NCBI GenBank assembly: GCA_022822085.1
Contig: JAJECK010000137.1
Location: 1 to 37,374, forward strand
Source: Candidatus Poribacteria bacterium
Lineage (GTDB): Bacteria > Poribacteria > WGA-4E > WGA-3G
DNA length: 37,374 bases
Direction: 5' to 3'
The notes under the pieces were generated by a model. It did no database searches, was not told where the DNA came from, and saw only the letters and a program-made list of their open reading frames with translations. The position numbers and the translations under genes are program-made. Shown in pieces: positions 12,643 to 21,658 of the stretch. How positions within the stretch are numbered: the first letter of the stretch is position 1; every line of letters starts with the position of its first letter.

Positions 12643-13911
12643 ATGACTAACTATTATATAGAGTCATTTAAGGTGACCAAACTGTGGGGTCATCGAGATA
12701 TTGACTTAACTTTTAACAATGATGTGAATATATTAATTGGTCTGAATGGTTCTGGTAAAACCACTGTTTTGCACCTTTTGTATTCTATCTTATCAGTTAA
12801 TTTACAAAATCTCTTTGAAATCAATTTTGACCAAGTAGAGATTAAGTTAACGAGTTTTAAAGGTAGATCTGTACGGACGATTAAGGTTAATCATGTCGAT
12901 AATAGATTATTGAAACTCAGCATTGGAAAAAAGGTTATTCCGATCAATAAATTCTCATTTTCTGATCGAACATTTCACCAAGCCAGCTTGTTTGATGAAG
13001 GCGAACCGGTAATCAGACAATTATTGCCAAAAAAAGTTTACGATGAATTAACGTCCTTTGTTCCTATTGTTTGGCTTCCTGTAAGTCGCCGTTTGCCTGT
13101 AGCAGAAGATAAGGAAGAACGATATTCAAGGAGGGAAACTTTGGAATCGGTAGACTTACGCCTCAAGGAATTGTTAACAGGTCTCTCTCGTTATCGTTCT
13201 GAATTAAATGCACAACTTTCAAAACGTTATAGGAACTTCGAAAATCAAGTTTTGTCAGTGATACTTTATAGTAAGGAACACGACCATATTGATTCAATTC
13301 CTTCTTCCTTGCCGAACGAATCTGAAAAGAAACAATTAATAGGTGCTTTTGATGCTGCTGGACTTTTAAATGAGCAGATGCAGTCCAGAATTGAAGAGCA
13401 TTTCGCTGCTGCAGAGAAAGTAGGAAAACGGATTAGTGATAACGTCGGTTACGAATTAGAGGATATTCTTGTAGTCCCGCTTATCAGTCGAACAAAATCA
13501 ATGGTTGAATATGCAAGGAAACTTGAAAAGCATAGAAATGACATTTTTGCTCCACTACGTCTCTATGAAGACATCGTCAATACATTTTTTGAAGATAAAA
13601 CTATTATAGTTGATGAAAGTGGTAGTTTGGAAATTAAGTCGTCTTCACAATCAGCATTTAACTGGCGATTCCTTTCTTCAGGAGAGAAACAAATTTTGAT
13701 TTTGCTCACGCAAGCACTCCTTAGACTTAATAATCCTGTGGTATATATAGCTGATGAACCAGAGTTGTCGCTTCATGTAACTTGGCAAGAAAAACTTCTT
13801 GATTCATTAGAAAAAATTGGAGGACAAAAACAAATAATCGTTGCAACGCACTCTCCTGATATTGTCGGGAAATATAGGGAAAACGTAATTATTTTAGGAA
13901 AGGAGAGTTAA
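12643..13911 (+). CDS. AAA/SMC-like ATPase, AriA-type component of a PARIS-like defence system
   Basis: A 422-residue ATPase of the AAA_15/AAA_21 (OLD-like) class. Walker A is GLNGSGKT (residues 33-40), the ABC-type signature LSSGEKQIL is near 344, Walker B VVYIADEPELSLH is near 366-378, and the His switch VATHSPDIV is near 401. The middle is helical and charged, consistent with a coiled-coil or lid insert. It has no TOPRIM domain of its own. The stop codon overlaps the next start (TAATG), and that gene encodes a DUF4435 protein. This pairing is the layout of PARIS, where AriA senses a phage trigger and releases the AriB toxin. AAAGGA lies 6 nt before the ATG. Assignment to PARIS is by architecture; a different OLD-like two-gene system is possible. 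Confidence 0.8.
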   Translation: MTNYYIESFKVTKLWGHRDIDLTFNNDVNILIGLNGSGKTTVLHLLYSILSVNLQNLFEINFDQVEIKLTSFKGRSVRTIKVNHVDNRLLKLSIGKKVIPINKFSFSDRTFHQASLFDEGEPVIRQLLPKKVYDELTSFVPIVWLPVSRRLPVAEDKEERYSRRETLESVDLRLKELLTGLSRYRSELNAQLSKRYRNFENQVLSVILYSKEHDHIDSIPSSLPNESEKKQLIGAFDAAGLLNEQMQSRIEEHFAAAEKVGKRISDNVGYELEDILVVPLISRTKSMVEYARKLEKHRNDIFAPLRLYEDIVNTFFEDKTIIVDESGSLEIKSSSQSAFNWRFLSSGEKQILILLTQALLRLNNPVVYIADEPELSLHVTWQEKLLDSLEKIGGQKQIIVATHSPDIVGKYRENVIILGKES

Positions 13912-14759
13912 TGGAATTTATCCGAACTGATTCTGGAATAGTAAACACAGATCTTTTTTACCCAAATATACTTGTATTTGTTGAGGGGCATACAGATTTC
14001 CCTTTCTATGAGGAAGTACTAGGAAACTACAATTATCATCTGAAGGCACAAGGAGGAAAAACTGAATGTAAGAAATTAGTTGAGGTCCTATTAGAAAAAG
14101 ATCTTCCGTTTGTTGTTGTACTTGATGGAGATTATGGGATCCTTGAGACCAAACGTAGTAAACATAGACGTGTAGTATTACTTCATCGTTATTCATTTGA
14201 GAATTATCTTATTGAAAAGGAACCCATTGAACAGTTTTGTCGCGATTATAAGGCATCTGAGAATCGTTTAAAACAATTGGAAAACGAATATAACGCAATT
14301 CTGGATTTAACAAGACAGAAATTTGAAGAACTTATAATACTAGATGTTGCACATCAACGTGCAGAAACAGGGAAAGATGTCCTTCCAGATAAGTCTGGCC
14401 GATTTTTCAAGAAAAGTAAGAAAGTAGAATTTTCGGACAGTCAGATTGAACAACACACAAAAGCAGCCAAGAATGTTAATCAAGATGAGATTAATGAAGC
14501 AACAGCTTTAGTGAAAAAGTATCAAGAAGAACGTCGTTTTGTAGACATGATTCCCGGTCATTTTGCTTTTGGTATTATTGGGCGTTTTGTTAGTAATATA
14601 GTTGGAGGAAGCATAAAATATGATGATTTGAGAATTTATCTATCAAGAGTAGTGTGGAAATTAGTAAAGAGAAGCGACCATAACAGTTTGAAAAATCGAC
14701 TACGACAGGCAGTCCGAGATGCTGCACATATGCGTAAAATTAGTATATTTAAAACATAG
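13911..14759 (+). CDS. DUF4435 (TOPRIM-like) protein, AriB-type effector of a PARIS-like system
   Basis: A 282-residue protein with the DUF4435 hallmarks: FVEGHTDFPFYEEVL (residues 23-37, with the TOPRIM Glu), VVVLDGDYG (about 68-76, Asp pair) and YSFENYLIE (about 94-102). A Lys-rich helical segment follows (about 120-210), then a C-terminal helical domain. In PARIS the DUF4435 protein AriB is an RNase toxin, shown in E. coli to cut host tRNA when freed from AriA. Its ATG overlaps the ATPase stop by one base and is preceded by AAAGGAGAG, so the two are translationally coupled and probably made in a fixed ratio. It is followed 45 bp later by accD. The function in this organism is inferred. Confidence 0.78.
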   Translation: MEFIRTDSGIVNTDLFYPNILVFVEGHTDFPFYEEVLGNYNYHLKAQGGKTECKKLVEVLLEKDLPFVVVLDGDYGILETKRSKHRRVVLLHRYSFENYLIEKEPIEQFCRDYKASENRLKQLENEYNAILDLTRQKFEELIILDVAHQRAETGKDVLPDKSGRFFKKSKKVEFSDSQIEQHTKAAKNVNQDEINEATALVKKYQEERRFVDMIPGHFAFGIIGRFVSNIVGGSIKYDDLRIYLSRVVWKLVKRSDHNSLKNRLRQAVRDAAHMRKISIFKT

Positions 14760-14804: not shown

Positions 14805-15572
14805 ATGTCTCCAGACACCTTTGCTTGCAGAAATTGCAATGCAGATATCAAGTTAGAAGCATTAATCAAGAACCTAAAGGTTTGTCCAGAATGTGATGCT
14901 CACTTCCCGATGAGTGCACAGGAACGGTTAGACCTTCTTGTAGATTCTGATAGTTTTGAAGAAACTGATGTAAACCTATACTCCATAGATGCGTTAGAAT
15001 TCCCTGAATATCCAGATAAACTTGAACGTGATATAACGAAAACTGGACTCAGATCAGAGATGCTTTCTGGTACAGCAGAAATCGGAGGATATTCGGTAGC
15101 AATTGCAATTGGAGATGTCGGTTTTATCGGTGGGACATGTGGTGCAGTTATCGGTGAGAAGGTAACCCGATGCATCGAGTATGCTGGAAAAAACAATTTA
15201 CCGCTCGTTATTGTATCCGTGAGTGGGGGTATGCGGATGCAGGAGGGTACTTTGGCATTGATGCAGATGGCAAAAACCGCTGCTGCATGCGCTGAATACG
15301 CAAAAAATGGTGGATTCTATATTTCGGTAGTTACAGATCCAACATTTGGTGGTGCTACGGCGAGTTACACATCGCTTGGTGATGTGATTGTTGCAGAACC
15401 CGGGGCACGTGTTGGGTTTGCGGGTCCTTTGGCTGTTGCGAGCCTACAGGAAGAACTCCCCGAAAACTTCCAGAAAGCTGAGTCATTGGTCGCGCATGGA
15501 TTTATCGACCATATTGTTCACCGAACAGGCATGAGACAATTACTGATTGACCTGCTCTCATTCGTAAATTGA
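14805..15572 (+). CDS. accD: Acetyl-CoA carboxylase carboxyltransferase subunit beta
   Basis: AccD forms, with AccA, the carboxyltransferase that moves CO2 from biotin to acetyl-CoA for fatty acid synthesis. The N-terminal zinc ribbon is visible (CRNC at residues 8-11, CPEC at 27-30). It is followed by the crotonase-fold core: GGTCGAVIGEKVTR, VSVSGGMRMQEG, PTFGGATASYTSLGD and ARVGFAGP. At 255 residues it is about 50 shorter than the E. coli protein, mostly at the two ends. There is no Shine-Dalgarno before the ATG. Instead TATAAT ends 6 nt upstream, which would suit a leaderless transcript. It lies 45 bp after the DUF4435 gene but is unlikely to be related in function. accA is not in the window. 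Confidence 0.93.
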   Translation: MSPDTFACRNCNADIKLEALIKNLKVCPECDAHFPMSAQERLDLLVDSDSFEETDVNLYSIDALEFPEYPDKLERDITKTGLRSEMLSGTAEIGGYSVAIAIGDVGFIGGTCGAVIGEKVTRCIEYAGKNNLPLVIVSVSGGMRMQEGTLALMQMAKTAAACAEYAKNGGFYISVVTDPTFGGATASYTSLGDVIVAEPGARVGFAGPLAVASLQEELPENFQKAESLVAHGFIDHIVHRTGMRQLLIDLLSFVN

Positions 15573-15784: not shown

Positions 15785-18061
15785 ATGCCGAAATCATTAG
15801 TAGTAGTTGAATCTCCAGCAAAAGCAAAAACAATTGAAAAAATATTAGGAAAAGACTATATTGTTGATTCCTCTGTTGGACATATTCGAGACCTACCCAA
15901 AAAAGATCTTGGTGTTGATGTTGATAATAACTTCACTCCAAAATATGTGCTTATACGCGGCAAAGGACCGGTCGTTAAAGCAATCAAGGAAAAAGCAAAA
16001 AAGGTTGATTGTATATATCTCGCTGCGGACCCGGATAGAGAAGGAGAAGCAATTTGTTGGCACCTCGCAACAGAATTAATCAAGTCGAAAAAACCGATTT
16101 ATCGCATTGTCTACAATGAGGTAACACAAAACGCTATTTTAGAAGCAATTGAAAATCCTGGTACAATTAATCAAGCACTTGTGGATGCGCAGCAGGCGCG
16201 CCGTGTTTTAGATAGACTTATCGGATGGAAGATCAGCCCGATCTTATGGCGCAGTGTTAAACCGGGATTGAGCGCAGGTCGGGTGCAATCTGTTGCTGTG
16301 CGACTTATCTGTGAACGTGAGGCGGAAATTGAAGCATTTAATCCTGAAGAATATTGGACAATAACTGCCACACTTACACCTAAACCCAAAGAACATCTGT
16401 TTCCAGCAAAACTCCATAAAATTGGAACCAAGAAGGGTGAGATAAACAACTACGGATTTCGTATTGATGAGGAACGGGCGAAGGAATTAACCGATGACGC
16501 AAAGGAACAGACTTATGTCGTTGAGAAAGTTCAAAAACGTGAACGGAAACAGAATCCTGTTCCACCTTTCATTACGAGTACTTTACAACAAGAAGCATCC
16601 CGTAAACTCCGTTTTTCTGCCAAACAAACCATGATGATAGCGCAGCAGTTATATGAAGGGTTGACTATCGGAGATGAAGGTTCTGTTGGACTTATCACCT
16701 ATATGCGAACAGATTCAACCCGTGTTGCTCAGGATGCCCTAACTGCGGTTCGGAAATATATTAAGAGTAAATACGGTTCTGATTATTTGCCTACCCGTGC
16801 AGTCAATTATCGGAGCAAAAAAGACGCTCAAGATGCACATGAGGCGATTCGTCCCACACTTCAACTGCGTACACCCGAATCCATAAAACAATTCTTGAGT
16901 AAGGATCAATTCCGTCTCTATGACTTGATATGGAAAAGGTTTATTGCAAGTCAGATGAAACCTGCGATATTTGACGCAACGACGATTGACATCAAAGCAG
17001 GACGTTACACATTCCGCGCGACCGGCTCCGTTATCAAGTTTGATGGTTTTAGACGGATTTATATGGAGGGTCAAGACGATGTTACGAATGGTGCCACTGG
17101 AGATGAGGCTGAGAATGTAAATTTACCTGATGTAAAGGAAGGTGAAGAACTTGATCTACGTAAGATGGATCCGAAGCAACACTGGACTCAACCTCCCCCG
17201 AGATATAATGAAGCCACACTTGTCAAAGCATTAGAAGCAAAAGGTATTGGACGACCAAGTACCTATGCGTCAATAATTTCAACCATTCAGGAGCGAGAAT
17301 ATATAACTAAAGAGCAGCGAAGACTGTTACCCACTGATGTCGGTAGACTTGTCAATGAACTCTTAGTCCACGGTTTTCCTGAGATTGTTGACGTTGAATT
17401 TACTAAAGAGATGGAACAGAAACTTGATACCATAGCAGAAGGTAAGACTGGTTGGGTGGACACACTGGGTGAATTTTATCCATCATTCCAAGAAGCATTG
17501 AAAGACGCACCAGATAAGATGTACGAGGCTCGAAAAGCCATGGAAACAGAATCGGGTGAAGTGTGCGAAAAATGCGGTGGTAACATGATTGTGAAATGGG
17601 GGAGATATGGGAGATTTCTGGGGTGTTCAAACTATCCTGAATGTGAAAATATCAAACGTCTGAACGGTGATGATACAGTTGCGGAAGAACCTGAAGAAAC
17701 AGACACAGCTTGTGATAAGTGTGGTGAACCGATGGTGATAAAGCAGAGCCGTTCTGGGGCACGTTTTATGGCATGTAGTGGCTATCCAAAGTGCAAAAAT
17801 GCAAAACCGATTCCTATGGGTGTTGACTGTCCGGAACCTGATTGTGACGGGTACTTAGGAGAACGTCGGAGTAAACGAGGGAGAGTATTCTACGGGTGTA
17901 GCAATTATCCGACTTGTGGATTTGCCAGTTGGGATAAACCGTTACCGGAGCCATGCCCAAAATGTGATGCACCTTATATCGTTGAGAAAGCACAAAAAGA
18001 CGGTGATCCTATTCACACTTGTGCTGATAAGTCATGTGATTTTAAAAGAGCAATAGCTTAA
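15785..18061 (+). CDS. topA: DNA topoisomerase I
   Basis: TopA is a type IA enzyme that relaxes negative supercoils through a 5'-phosphotyrosyl link. The 758-residue protein begins with the TOPRIM domain (LVVVESPAKAKTIEKILG, with Glu9, and YLAADPDREGEAICWHL). It continues with the GLSAGRVQSVAVRLI gate region, the active-site segment GLITYMRTDSTRV (Tyr near 306) and GIGRPSTYASIISTIQ. The C-terminus carries four Cys4-type zinc ribbons (CEKCGG, CDKCGE, CPEPDC, CPKCDA), one more than in E. coli. Start ATG 15785 has only a distant AAGGAC. The 212 bp before it are AT-rich and hold no gene. It lies 66 bp ahead of ftsE. Confidence 0.96.
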   Translation: MPKSLVVVESPAKAKTIEKILGKDYIVDSSVGHIRDLPKKDLGVDVDNNFTPKYVLIRGKGPVVKAIKEKAKKVDCIYLAADPDREGEAICWHLATELIKSKKPIYRIVYNEVTQNAILEAIENPGTINQALVDAQQARRVLDRLIGWKISPILWRSVKPGLSAGRVQSVAVRLICEREAEIEAFNPEEYWTITATLTPKPKEHLFPAKLHKIGTKKGEINNYGFRIDEERAKELTDDAKEQTYVVEKVQKRERKQNPVPPFITSTLQQEASRKLRFSAKQTMMIAQQLYEGLTIGDEGSVGLITYMRTDSTRVAQDALTAVRKYIKSKYGSDYLPTRAVNYRSKKDAQDAHEAIRPTLQLRTPESIKQFLSKDQFRLYDLIWKRFIASQMKPAIFDATTIDIKAGRYTFRATGSVIKFDGFRRIYMEGQDDVTNGATGDEAENVNLPDVKEGEELDLRKMDPKQHWTQPPPRYNEATLVKALEAKGIGRPSTYASIISTIQEREYITKEQRRLLPTDVGRLVNELLVHGFPEIVDVEFTKEMEQKLDTIAEGKTGWVDTLGEFYPSFQEALKDAPDKMYEARKAMETESGEVCEKCGGNMIVKWGRYGRFLGCSNYPECENIKRLNGDDTVAEEPEETDTACDKCGEPMVIKQSRSGARFMACSGYPKCKNAKPIPMGVDCPEPDCDGYLGERRSKRGRVFYGCSNYPTCGFASWDKPLPEPCPKCDAPYIVEKAQKDGDPIHTCADKSCDFKRAIA

Positions 18062-18127: not shown

Positions 18128-18799
18128 ATGATACAACTTCATCAAGTTAATTTCAGTTATCGTGACCTAAGTGTTTTGGAAAGAGCGAGTTTTCGTCTTG
18201 AGCGCGGGGAGTTCGGTTTCCTCGTAGGTGGCAGTGGATCTGGAAAGACGACACTTTTAAAACTACTTTATGGAGCATTAACGCCAGTTTCTGGGACTGT
18301 GAATGTTCTTGGGCAATCCCTTGCTGAACTAACACCCTCTACATTGCCCTACTTCAGACGAAAAATTGGAATTGTGTTTCAAGACTACAATCTTGTTGAG
18401 TACAAAACTGTTGAGCAAAATCTGGCAATTCCACAAAAATTAATTGGAACAAAAGGACAGATATTGCAGGAAAATGTAAATAATCTATTACATCAAATGG
18501 GGTTGGTTCACCATAAGAAAGCGTATCCAAGCCAAATTTCATACAACGAACGGCAGCGGCTTGTTATTGCGAGGGCAATAATTAATAGTCCATTATTACT
18601 CATTGCTGATCAACCAACAGATACACTTGATCCATCACTTACCCTTGAAATGCTTGCACTCTTTGATGCACTTAATTTTCAAGGAACTACAGTCTTAGTT
18701 TCCACTACGGATCCTGATCTCCCTGATAGATATATCCGTGCAAAAAACGCCGCACCAAAACGTGTTTTCACACTGAAAGATGGACATATATCAGCATAA
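18128..18799 (+). CDS. ftsE: Cell-division ABC ATPase FtsE with degenerate catalytic motifs
   Basis: FtsE pairs with the membrane protein FtsX to drive wall hydrolases at the division site. The protein aligns end to end with FtsE (223 residues) and is followed by ftsX. Walker A is intact (GGSGSGKTT, near residue 35), as is the Q-loop (FQDYNLVEYKTVEQN). Three other motifs have lost key residues. The ABC signature LSGGE is ISYNE (Tyr139, Asn140), the Walker B Glu is Gln162 (ADQPTDTLDP), and the H-loop His is Thr194 (VSTTDPD). These changes predict ATP binding but little or no hydrolysis. The reading frame is clean, so this is not simple decay. A GGAATG about 9 nt before the ATG could be a weak ribosome site. 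Confidence 0.88.
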   Translation: MIQLHQVNFSYRDLSVLERASFRLERGEFGFLVGGSGSGKTTLLKLLYGALTPVSGTVNVLGQSLAELTPSTLPYFRRKIGIVFQDYNLVEYKTVEQNLAIPQKLIGTKGQILQENVNNLLHQMGLVHHKKAYPSQISYNERQRLVIARAIINSPLLLIADQPTDTLDPSLTLEMLALFDALNFQGTTVLVSTTDPDLPDRYIRAKNAAPKRVFTLKDGHISA

Positions 18800-19004: not shown

Positions 19005-19880
19005 ATGCGATACAAGATTCAAAACGCTTTCACTCATATAGGTCTAACCGGATTCAATAACATATTAAGTCTTATTGCGATTGCTTTTATCACTTTATTA
19101 CTCAATACATTTCTGTTCAATCATAATACTATTTTCAAAGAGTTATCATTGAGAGAGACTGTAGCACCCCTCGTTGCTTATGCTAATGATACGGTAGTAG
19201 AGGAAGATGCGAGGGTTTTTGCAAACCAGATTCAAAAAAATGAACATATAGAATTTATTGCGTATGTTTCAAAAGAAGAAAATCTTAACCGTGCTGAAAA
19301 GCAGTTTGGACCGCTCGGTAGATTGATAAAGAACGGATTTTCGGGGAGTAATCCGTTTCCTGCGTCCTTAGAGATTTATGTTGACTCAGATAGTGTTTCA
19401 CGGAAAACATTGGAACAGATCGCATTTGACATAGAAGCGTATGAAACAATTGATGATGTTATTTTTACAGGTCATGGAATACTGGCAGATATTTCTCGCG
19501 AAACTAATCGAATGACAATAGTAAGTATAGCAATTACAATTCTATTTTCGTTGCTTCTCATCCGCGCTGCTATTCTGAGAACAGGTCAATACCGTAATCA
19601 GGAGATACATCTATTAAATCTCACTGGTGCTACGCAAGGACATCTTAGGTTCCCTTTTATTATGCACGGCGTATTTCTGGGTTTTATCGGATCAGTTTTA
19701 GGTATAATCTGTTTCTATTTGCTCTACAGTCTGTTTATATTCCAACTTGGCGTCCTCGAATTCATTCCATACCATCAACTGATTGCTATAGTTGGAACGG
19801 GTGTCATCATCGGCATTGTCTCAGGTATATCGGCATTTCGTAAGTATGCAAATACCTATAGAAAAAGGTTGGTAACATAA
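19005..19880 (+). CDS. ftsX: Cell-division ABC-type membrane protein FtsX
   Basis: FtsX is the membrane partner of FtsE and passes its signal to periplasmic peptidoglycan hydrolase activators. The 291-residue protein has the family layout. There is one transmembrane segment near residues 18-40, an extracytoplasmic domain with EFIAYVSKEENLNRAEKQFG and NPFPASLEIYV, and then three transmembrane segments (about 170-190, 215-245, 260-280). The second of these follows HLLNLTGATQGHLRFPF, the cytoplasmic coupling loop that touches FtsE. No Shine-Dalgarno is seen before the ATG, only an AT-rich TATATAAA. The gap to ftsE holds a nested stem-loop. polX follows after 26 bp. Confidence 0.92.
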   Translation: MRYKIQNAFTHIGLTGFNNILSLIAIAFITLLLNTFLFNHNTIFKELSLRETVAPLVAYANDTVVEEDARVFANQIQKNEHIEFIAYVSKEENLNRAEKQFGPLGRLIKNGFSGSNPFPASLEIYVDSDSVSRKTLEQIAFDIEAYETIDDVIFTGHGILADISRETNRMTIVSIAITILFSLLLIRAAILRTGQYRNQEIHLLNLTGATQGHLRFPFIMHGVFLGFIGSVLGIICFYLLYSLFIFQLGVLEFIPYHQLIAIVGTGVIIGIVSGISAFRKYANTYRKRLVT

Positions 19881-19906
19881 AGGGATTTATAGGATCACGC
19901 TTGACA

Positions 19907-21658
19907 ATGAAAAACATAGAAATAAGTGTAATCTTTAAAAACATTGCCAAACTCTTAACAATAAAGGGGGAGGCATCATTTCGCATTAAGTCTTATGAGA
20001 AAGCTGCTGACATAATTAGTGATTTAGCCGAAGACGTTAGTGAATTGATTGAAGCAGGTAAATTCCAAAGTTTTTCAGGAATTGGCAAAACAATTGAAGA
20101 TAAATCGAAAGAGATACTGGAAACTGGTACCTGCCAAGCTTATGAAAAGCTTATAGCAGAGATGGGGATTGAGGCATTAGACCTATTGGAATTGCGAGGG
20201 GTAGGCGGTAAAACTGCTGGTGTCCTCTATAATGACCTTGGTATTAAAAATCTAAATGACCTCTCATATGCCCTTGATTCCGGAAAACTTCAAGGAGTAA
20301 AAGGCATTGGGAAGAAGACGCTTGAGACTATTTCTGATAGCCTTATATTTCTCAAGACCTATAAAGGTACCCGCATTCTGGCAAGATGCTTAGATATTGC
20401 CAAACATCTTTCAAAAATATTAGATAATTGTGATTCTGTCAATCAATACCAATTCACAGGTGATGTGCGAAGACTTGAAGAAGTTTGTCGTAGCATTGAA
20501 ATCGTAGTGGAGTGTTCTGATGACATAATCGCAACGAAAAACGCTCTTGTTGAAACATTTTCCACACATCAACAACCTCTACAGACCGTAATTAACGAAC
20601 CACAGAATTATACTGCGAAAATCCCAATATTAGAACCTATAGAAAAAATCCACCTGTTCGTAGACAGCGGTTTGCCAGTTACCGTCTATCTGTGTTCGGC
20701 AGTAGATTTTGAGTCCGTGCTATTCCTCACAACTCCAACTCCTGAACATCTTAACGCTATTCCTTCTGTAAATGAACGATGTGAAAGTAAAGAGTCATTA
20801 ACTGAATTACAGAATAAAACTGAAGTTGAAATATATGATAAATTAGGGATGTCGTTTATTCCACCGGAACTACGGAAATATCCTGACTCAGTTACTTTAG
20901 CGATTGAAGATCAGTTGCCACAACTTATTGAATTCAATGATTTACGTGGTGATTTGCATACGCATACCGATTGGAGTGATGGCGCACATTGTATGGAAGA
21001 TATGGTTGAAGCTGCTATCGCCCGAGAATTGGACTATTATGCGATTACGGATCATTCTGTATCCTCATCTGTTGCCAACGGTTTAGATCAACAACGGCTA
21101 TTGAAACAGATAAAATATGTGCATCAACTCAATGAGAAGACAGAAGGTATTACACTGTTAGCGGGTTCAGAAGTAGATATTCTAAGAGATGGTTCCCTTG
21201 ATTACTCTGATGAAATTCTTGCTCAGCTTGATATCGTAGTGGCAAGTGTTCATAGTAATTTCACACTTTCGGAAGCCGAGATGACGAAACGGGTGATTTG
21301 TGCGATTGAAAATCCGTATGTCATGATTATCGGTCATCTAACAGGTCGTTTGCTCGGAAGAAGACAGGAATATCCGATCAATGTGCCCGAAATTATACAC
21401 GCAGCTGCCGAGAACAATACAATTCTGGAGATAAATGGTTCACCGAGTAGGCTGGATTTAGGACCAGAATATGTGCGTCAAGCAAAGGAAGCGGGTGTGC
21501 TGATTGCAGTAAATACAGATGCACATTCAATACCGGAATCAGAGCGATATAAGTATGGGGTGAATGTTGCACGCAGGAGTGGATTGACAAAAGAGGATGT
21601 CCTCAATACATATCCATTAGAGCAACTACGCCAGATTTTAAACCGAGATATTAGTTGA
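19907..21658 (+). CDS. polX: PolX-family protein: degenerate polymerase domain, intact PHP nuclease
   Basis: PolX couples a family X DNA polymerase to a 3'-5' exonuclease of the PHP fold for gap-filling repair. The N-terminal helix-hairpin-helix regions are normal (FRIKSYEKAA, LELRGVGGKTA, LQGVKGIGKKTLE). The polymerase active site is not. The usual GSxRRxxxxxGDxD reads GDVRRLEEVCRSIE, so both Asp are lost (Ser196, Glu198), and the third Asp (VDLR) is Thr259 in PVTVYL. The PHP domain keeps its metal ligands: DLHTHTDWSDG, ITDHS, AGSEVDIL, ASVHS, IGHLTGR and VNTDAHS. The protein is therefore probably a nuclease without polymerase activity. ATG 19907 matches the family start (MKN.EI..IF..IA); a TTG at 19901 is nearer the AGGA. 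Length is 583. Confidence 0.9.
   Translation: MKNIEISVIFKNIAKLLTIKGEASFRIKSYEKAADIISDLAEDVSELIEAGKFQSFSGIGKTIEDKSKEILETGTCQAYEKLIAEMGIEALDLLELRGVGGKTAGVLYNDLGIKNLNDLSYALDSGKLQGVKGIGKKTLETISDSLIFLKTYKGTRILARCLDIAKHLSKILDNCDSVNQYQFTGDVRRLEEVCRSIEIVVECSDDIIATKNALVETFSTHQQPLQTVINEPQNYTAKIPILEPIEKIHLFVDSGLPVTVYLCSAVDFESVLFLTTPTPEHLNAIPSVNERCESKESLTELQNKTEVEIYDKLGMSFIPPELRKYPDSVTLAIEDQLPQLIEFNDLRGDLHTHTDWSDGAHCMEDMVEAAIARELDYYAITDHSVSSSVANGLDQQRLLKQIKYVHQLNEKTEGITLLAGSEVDILRDGSLDYSDEILAQLDIVVASVHSNFTLSEAEMTKRVICAIENPYVMIIGHLTGRLLGRRQEYPINVPEIIHAAAENNTILEINGSPSRLDLGPEYVRQAKEAGVLIAVNTDAHSIPESERYKYGVNVARRSGLTKEDVLNTYPLEQLRQILNRDIS

Follow-up and report, generated by a model that had tools for sequence, protein, structure and literature searches.

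A candidate pseudo-ATPase derived from FtsE, fixed throughout a Poribacterial family and linked with the loss of EnvC

Can a bacterial lineage keep the division complex FtsEX when its ATPase subunit lacks the residues of ATP hydrolysis and, if so, what would such a complex do? The question is raised by a 37,374-nucleotide stretch of a Candidatus Poribacteria genome (hereafter, the window), in which the open reading frame at 18128-18799 (+) encodes, as read from its translation, an FtsE-type ABC ATPase of 223 amino acids. FtsEX hydrolysis is critical, for a reason that is not clear (PMC7343993), and each ATP site of an ABC protein is built from Walker A, Walker B and H-loop motifs on one side and from the partner subunit's signature on the other (PMC7756269).

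In the window protein, the translation and the family alignment showed an A-loop tyrosine (Tyr11, 18158..18160), a Walker A motif GGSGSGKTT with Lys40 (residues 34-42, 18227..18253), a Q-loop glutamine (Gln85 in VFQD, 18380..18382) and the Mg2+ ligand of Walker B (Asp161 in LLLIADQ, 18608..18610), all on the plus strand like the features that follow. The canonical signature region LSGGE was instead ISYNE (residues 137-141; degenerate signature SYNE, residues 138-141, 18539..18550), the catalytic glutamate was Gln162 (18611..18613), the H-loop histidine was Thr194 (in STTD, 18707..18709) and, in the D-loop region (18623..18631), the canonical Asn166 was lost and Asp168 was kept. On this motif reading, the protein does not have the complete ATPase set of Walker A and B, catalytic Glu, H-loop His and LSGGE. 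The initial annotation, which described an FtsE with intact Walker A and Q-loop, Gln for the catalytic Glu, Thr for the H-loop His and an intact gene beside ftsX, was thus accurate on each of these points.

The best curated family for the window protein was FtsE (TIGR02673), with 219.5 bits, below the equivalog cut-off of 264.85 bits; among the matches listed, members of the same Poribacterial family scored 212-246 bits and canonical Poribacterial FtsEs 259-301 bits. An AlphaFold model based on a diverse alignment that included canonical FtsEs reached a pLDDT of 92.8, and a model based on family sequences only (pLDDT 57.6) was set aside. Foldseek ranked E. coli FtsE (8hd0, TM 0.92-0.94) first for the retained model, and the next matches were for the most part further FtsEs and relatives of type VII; in several of these FtsE structures the Glu-to-Gln substitution that is natural in the window had been engineered. 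Consistently with an FtsE identity, the gene lies upstream of an intact ftsX (19005..19880, +, 291 aa, also aligned with its relatives), whose product exceeded the Pfam cut-off for FtsX_ECD (46.9 bits) as well as for FtsX (36.6 bits) and has its extracellular domain at residues 58-152 (19176..19460, +); NCBIfam FtsX models matched this protein below their own cut-offs. The conserved neighbours, recognised by synteny, are an accD-like gene named by sequence resemblance (14805..15572, +) and topA (15785..18061, +) upstream, and a PolX/PHP gene (19901..21658, +) downstream. By descent and fold the window protein is an FtsE, but neither its score nor its motifs qualify it as an FtsE equivalog.

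Two side observations were made on the surroundings of this locus. The PolX/PHP protein (19901-21658) had no Pfam palm match, and the site compared, where polymerase X normally carries its catalytic aspartates in a GDID-type motif, reads SIE/SLE in the family and QLE/RLE in a second Poribacterial family, f2; the polymerase part is probably dead by sequence, with the PHP domain remaining. Further upstream, two adjoining genes (12643-14759), one for an AAA_21 ATPase and the other for a protein with DUF4435, resemble AriA and AriB of the PARIS anti-phage defence.

To place the window protein among its relatives, orthologues were searched in 60 relatives and then in all 85 genomes available for the phylum, the family being defined at the GTDB level (59 genomes, 4 genera). 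Orthologues of ftsE were present in 54 of the 59 family genomes and all 54 were read; the hydrolysis motifs were lost in every one. The catalytic position held Gln in 16 orthologues (all of the window's genus), Ala in 37 and Gly in one, and the H-loop position held Ser in 29, Ala in 13 and Thr in 12. The signature read S-x-N-E throughout, Asn replacing the second Gly in 54/54, and the first Gly position varied and was still Gly in 21/54. The three changes noted in the initial annotation are thus fixed in related genomes, with the restriction that its Tyr-Asn pair in place of Gly-Gly holds for the window itself and only its second half for the family. All 16 FtsEs read from other Poribacterial families were canonical, with Glu and His in 16/16, and 77 of the 80 FtsE-like loci drawn from a genome collection lay outside the family, in other phyla, where Glu and His were kept in 77/77 (a SAGE signature being found in four). 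Six residues essentially invariant in canonical Poribacterial FtsE (V105, G140, E162, N166, E180 and H194) were lost in 54/54; the Walker A Lys, Walker B Asp, Q-loop Gln, A-loop Tyr, signature Ser138 and the D-loop Asp168 were kept in 54/54. In the five family genomes without ftsE (G008, G011, G062, G063 and G066) topA was missing as well, so that a shared binning or assembly gap, rather than gene loss, probably explains the absence.

When did these changes arise? In a tree of FtsE-like sequences built with the motif columns included, the family formed one clade (SH-aLRT 100), whose stem of 0.62 changes per site arose from within the canonical FtsEs of Poribacteria. In the searches, the paralogues (~31-40% identity) made up a set of their own. 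Both results support descent from FtsE rather than from LolD/MacB paralogues. On this topology, the hydrolysis motifs were lost once, on the long stem branch, in the common ancestor of the family.

We then considered the periplasmic side of the pathway. When the Peptidase_M23 proteins of eleven genomes were sorted, an EnvC-like protein, with a coiled coil and a degenerate LytM domain, occurred only together with canonical FtsEX. It aligned over most of its length with the EnvC proteins of V. cholerae (8tzk) and E. coli (6tpi), and it is called EnvC-like on architecture and alignment, its NCBIfam scores lying below the EnvC cut-off. A profile search of the phylum was positive in 22 of the 26 non-family genomes and in none of the 59 family genomes, and a lenient repeat search in family genomes, five single-contig ones included, returned only the M23-domain matches of other proteins. 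The four EnvC-less genomes outside the family (G036 and G039 of f2, G038 and G053) had no detectable FtsE orthologue or FtsX, an absence that for G053, as for its EnvC, is qualified by a genome 79% complete. In f2, the locus (L143, from G039) runs accD-topA-polX, the PolX/PHP gene directly following topA and ftsEX being cleanly absent; in G038 (L145, family f4) topA was present with no ftsEX beside it. Since f2 and G038 grouped with f4 in a topA tree, apart from the window's family, two or more losses of EnvC in Poribacteria are probable, as far as gene content and this tree indicate.

The rest of the division pathway was largely in place in the family. FtsZ, FtsA and FtsW were retained, the FtsZ C-terminal peptide was kept (DIPSFLR in the window's genome), Amidase_3 enzymes were present (usually three per family genome among the matches listed) and LysM-M23 genes remained. 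By eye, one family amidase has an insert resembling a regulatory helix. ORF lengths among the matches listed had suggested that a compact amidase (~285 aa) was lost together with EnvC; the idea was dropped, as a comparable insert occurs in an amidase of the family.

We compared selection on the locus by pairwise NG86 dN/dS, restricted to pairs with dS 0.05-1.5 and with topA, also our control for assembly gaps, as the control gene. The dN/dS of family ftsE was 0.085 in genus g1 and 0.066 in genus g2, that of the neighbouring topA was 0.073-0.076, and that of canonical ftsE in genus g8 was 0.030, two to three times lower than in the family. Within FtsX, the extracellular domain was the most constrained part (0.072 in g2, 0.126 in g1). 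By these ratios, family FtsE is maintained under purifying selection with some constraint lost. Sequencing error, chance, decay or a pseudogene as the source of the altered motifs was ruled out by the 54/54 relatives, by the purifying dN/dS and by there being no internal stops listed. A related possibility is that FtsEX lost its job when EnvC disappeared and is a relic with decaying motifs, a reading in line with the raised dN/dS of family FtsE and with f2 and G038 already having no ftsEX. We consider it improbable, because ftsEX is kept in all 54 family genomes in which the locus is present (the other five being without topA too), ftsE and topA have equal dN/dS, selection still acts on the extracellular domain of FtsX, and decay would hardly spare all the nucleotide-binding residues and fix Asn140 in every orthologue.

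What, then, would such an FtsE still do? That the nucleotide-binding residues were spared and the catalytic ones lost argues for retained nucleotide binding and abandoned hydrolysis, and we infer that family FtsE keeps Mg-nucleotide binding and has lost ATP hydrolysis. The complete retention of the Mg- and phosphate-binding residues might also suit slow hydrolysis through another arrangement of residues, with an EnvC-independent cycle persisting, and some ABC proteins with degenerate sites do stay functional (PMC7756269). Against this, both sites of the homodimer have lost the signature together with the catalytic Glu and the His, and the replacements vary (Gln, Ala or Gly for the Glu; Ser, Thr or Ala for the His), as they should where catalysis has been given up; we regard persistent slow hydrolysis as quite improbable.

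The missing activity might alternatively be supplied by another protein. No second FtsE or FtsX was found in the family genomes, which have one FtsX_ECD gene each; the next-best FtsE-like ABC proteins (~31-40% identity) form a separate set common to all Poribacteria. The initial annotation had left two options, FtsE as an ATP-binding scaffold or reliance on another ATPase. The fixed changes and the lack of a second FtsE favour the former, and we found no support for the latter, in which a LolD/MacB-type ATPase would energise FtsX or heterodimerise with FtsE. Many FtsE/LolD-like ATPases are indeed encoded in every genome, but they also occur in Poribacteria with canonical FtsE, and none lies beside ftsX in the window. 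Moreover, an asymmetric dimer needs a canonical signature from the subunit with degenerate Glu and His (PMC7756269), whereas the second signature Gly of family FtsE is Asn in 54/54; since both halves of the site are degenerate, family FtsE would form no intact site, whether it pairs with itself or with some canonical ABC partner. Help from another ATPase thus appears very improbable.

The reading that we favour, and consider moderately probable on the genomic evidence, is that FtsEX in this family has been uncoupled from the ATP-driven activation of EnvC and amidases and kept as a nucleotide-binding, non-hydrolysing scaffold of the divisome with a partner other than EnvC. In the common ancestor of the family, FtsE would have lost its ability to hydrolyse ATP. 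The present protein would bind Mg-nucleotide and hold FtsX in one fixed state, and the complex would be tethered to the Z-ring through the conserved FtsZ tail, to which FtsE binds in E. coli. The hydrolysis stroke that activates amidases through EnvC would have been given up, and the FtsX extracellular domain would touch some non-EnvC partner, FtsEX serving as a static divisome scaffold. Cell separation would be left to the remaining LytM and amidase proteins (LysM-M23, Amidase_3). Because selection continues to constrain the extracellular domain of FtsX, such a new periplasmic partner is likely in the family. With the apparent disappearance of EnvC from the family, this persisting constraint is what the comparison of genomes adds to the initial annotation.

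Two features of FtsE and FtsA count against the scaffold reading, as does the part of its constraint that family FtsE has lost. The signature Gly-to-Asn change could weaken the ATP sandwich, so that FtsE may be nucleotide-bound yet monomeric, or may not bind at all. In E. coli, FtsEX that does not hydrolyse ATP acts on FtsA and blocks septal peptidoglycan synthesis, and the family must therefore have changed its FtsA or the response of FtsA; an FtsA alignment, searched for a change escaping dead FtsEX, showed that family FtsA is divergent. The fuller proposal, that a whole family divides with a homodimeric FtsE without any functional ATPase site, FtsEX having passed from an ATP-driven transmembrane switch to a scaffold that is held by nucleotide and has a new periplasmic partner independent of EnvC, is put forward tentatively, as a reading just short of an even chance.

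The same residues allow a different outcome, namely that FtsEX is permanently switched on: Glu-to-Gln or Glu-to-Ala would lock the ATP-bound, closed dimer, and FtsX would constitutively activate a new periplasmic hydrolase in place of EnvC, with control by recruitment or expression. The window carries exactly the Glu-to-Gln change by which ATP-bound FtsEX has been trapped, the extracellular domain of FtsX is under constraint, and the family still encodes amidases and LysM-M23 proteins. In E. coli, FtsE E163Q traps the ATP-bound complex and impairs division, and S139/G141 and H195 contact ATP (PMC11491553). Such traps need an intact signature, however, and the closed dimer should be less stable with an invariable Asn at the second Gly and with the His lost as well. 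The catalytic position holds Ala, not Gln, in most family members, and no partner hydrolase was found. We therefore judge a constitutively active complex unlikely, though it deserves some weight.

The known systems nearest to the scaffold proposed here include the FtsE/FtsX type VII ABC mechanotransmitters that work with EnvC, PcsB, CwlO or RipC, with which the family shares fold, nucleotide-binding motifs, an adjoining FtsX with extracellular domain, and descent, and from which it differs by the absent catalytic Glu, H-loop His and second signature Gly, by the sub-equivalog score and by having no EnvC. The engineered FtsE(E163Q)X and FtsE(E165Q)X complexes solved by cryo-EM (8w6j, 8i6r, 8jia) have the identical Glu-to-Gln change at the same place as the window, but in the family the change is natural and clade-wide, is accompanied by loss of the His and the signature Gly, and is to Ala in most members. 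The degenerate sites of ABCB11, CFTR, TAP and Pdr5 likewise have no Walker B Glu, in many cases alongside an altered H-loop and signature, and keep nucleotide binding (PMC7756269), which family FtsE would do judging from its residues; those proteins retain one consensus site per dimer, whereas a homodimeric family FtsE would have none. Poribacteria without FtsEX (f2, G038 and G053) resemble the family in having no EnvC and differ in that FtsEX was not detected there at all, in f2 being gone from the same locus.

We found no earlier report of a degenerate FtsE or of a Poribacterial FtsE in the open-licence literature. The window protein is a candidate FtsE-derived pseudo-ATPase, fixed in one Poribacterial family and linked to EnvC loss. 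The family would be a natural example of a lineage that abandoned hydrolysis along with EnvC and yet retained and conserved FtsEX itself, separating in evolution the scaffold role of FtsEX from its role in activating hydrolases. The pattern of canonical FtsE with EnvC, against a dead FtsE or no FtsEX without EnvC, fits control of EnvC as the main reason for the ATPase cycle. The family might also provide a natural hydrolysis-dead FtsEX for biochemistry, and it predicts a new protein that binds FtsX. As ecological background, the Entoporibacteria are a sponge-associated group (PMC8546597).

Unusual FtsZ genes were also observed in the family. In L174:5904-10211 (G017) and L175:5178-9479 (G027), a single open reading frame joins three parts: an ECF sigma factor with Sigma70 regions 2 and 4, a complete FtsZ with Tubulin and FtsZ_C domains, and the alpha subunit of DNA polymerase III (PHP, DNA_pol3_alpha, finger and HHH_6 domains). 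Many family genomes contain comparable ORFs (1349-1450 aa). In those that were checked, a normal DnaE is encoded too, the fusion being the second. No report of this fusion was found in the open-licence literature. Sigma-FtsZ fusions without the polymerase (551-586 aa), and one of 413 aa with the sigma factor and the FtsZ GTPase domain only, were also present (L167:6341-8101 and L168:1814-3055, both in the window's genome; L173:7899-9554, in G020). Altogether, family genomes have two to four FtsZ-domain genes each, compared with one in almost all other Poribacteria.
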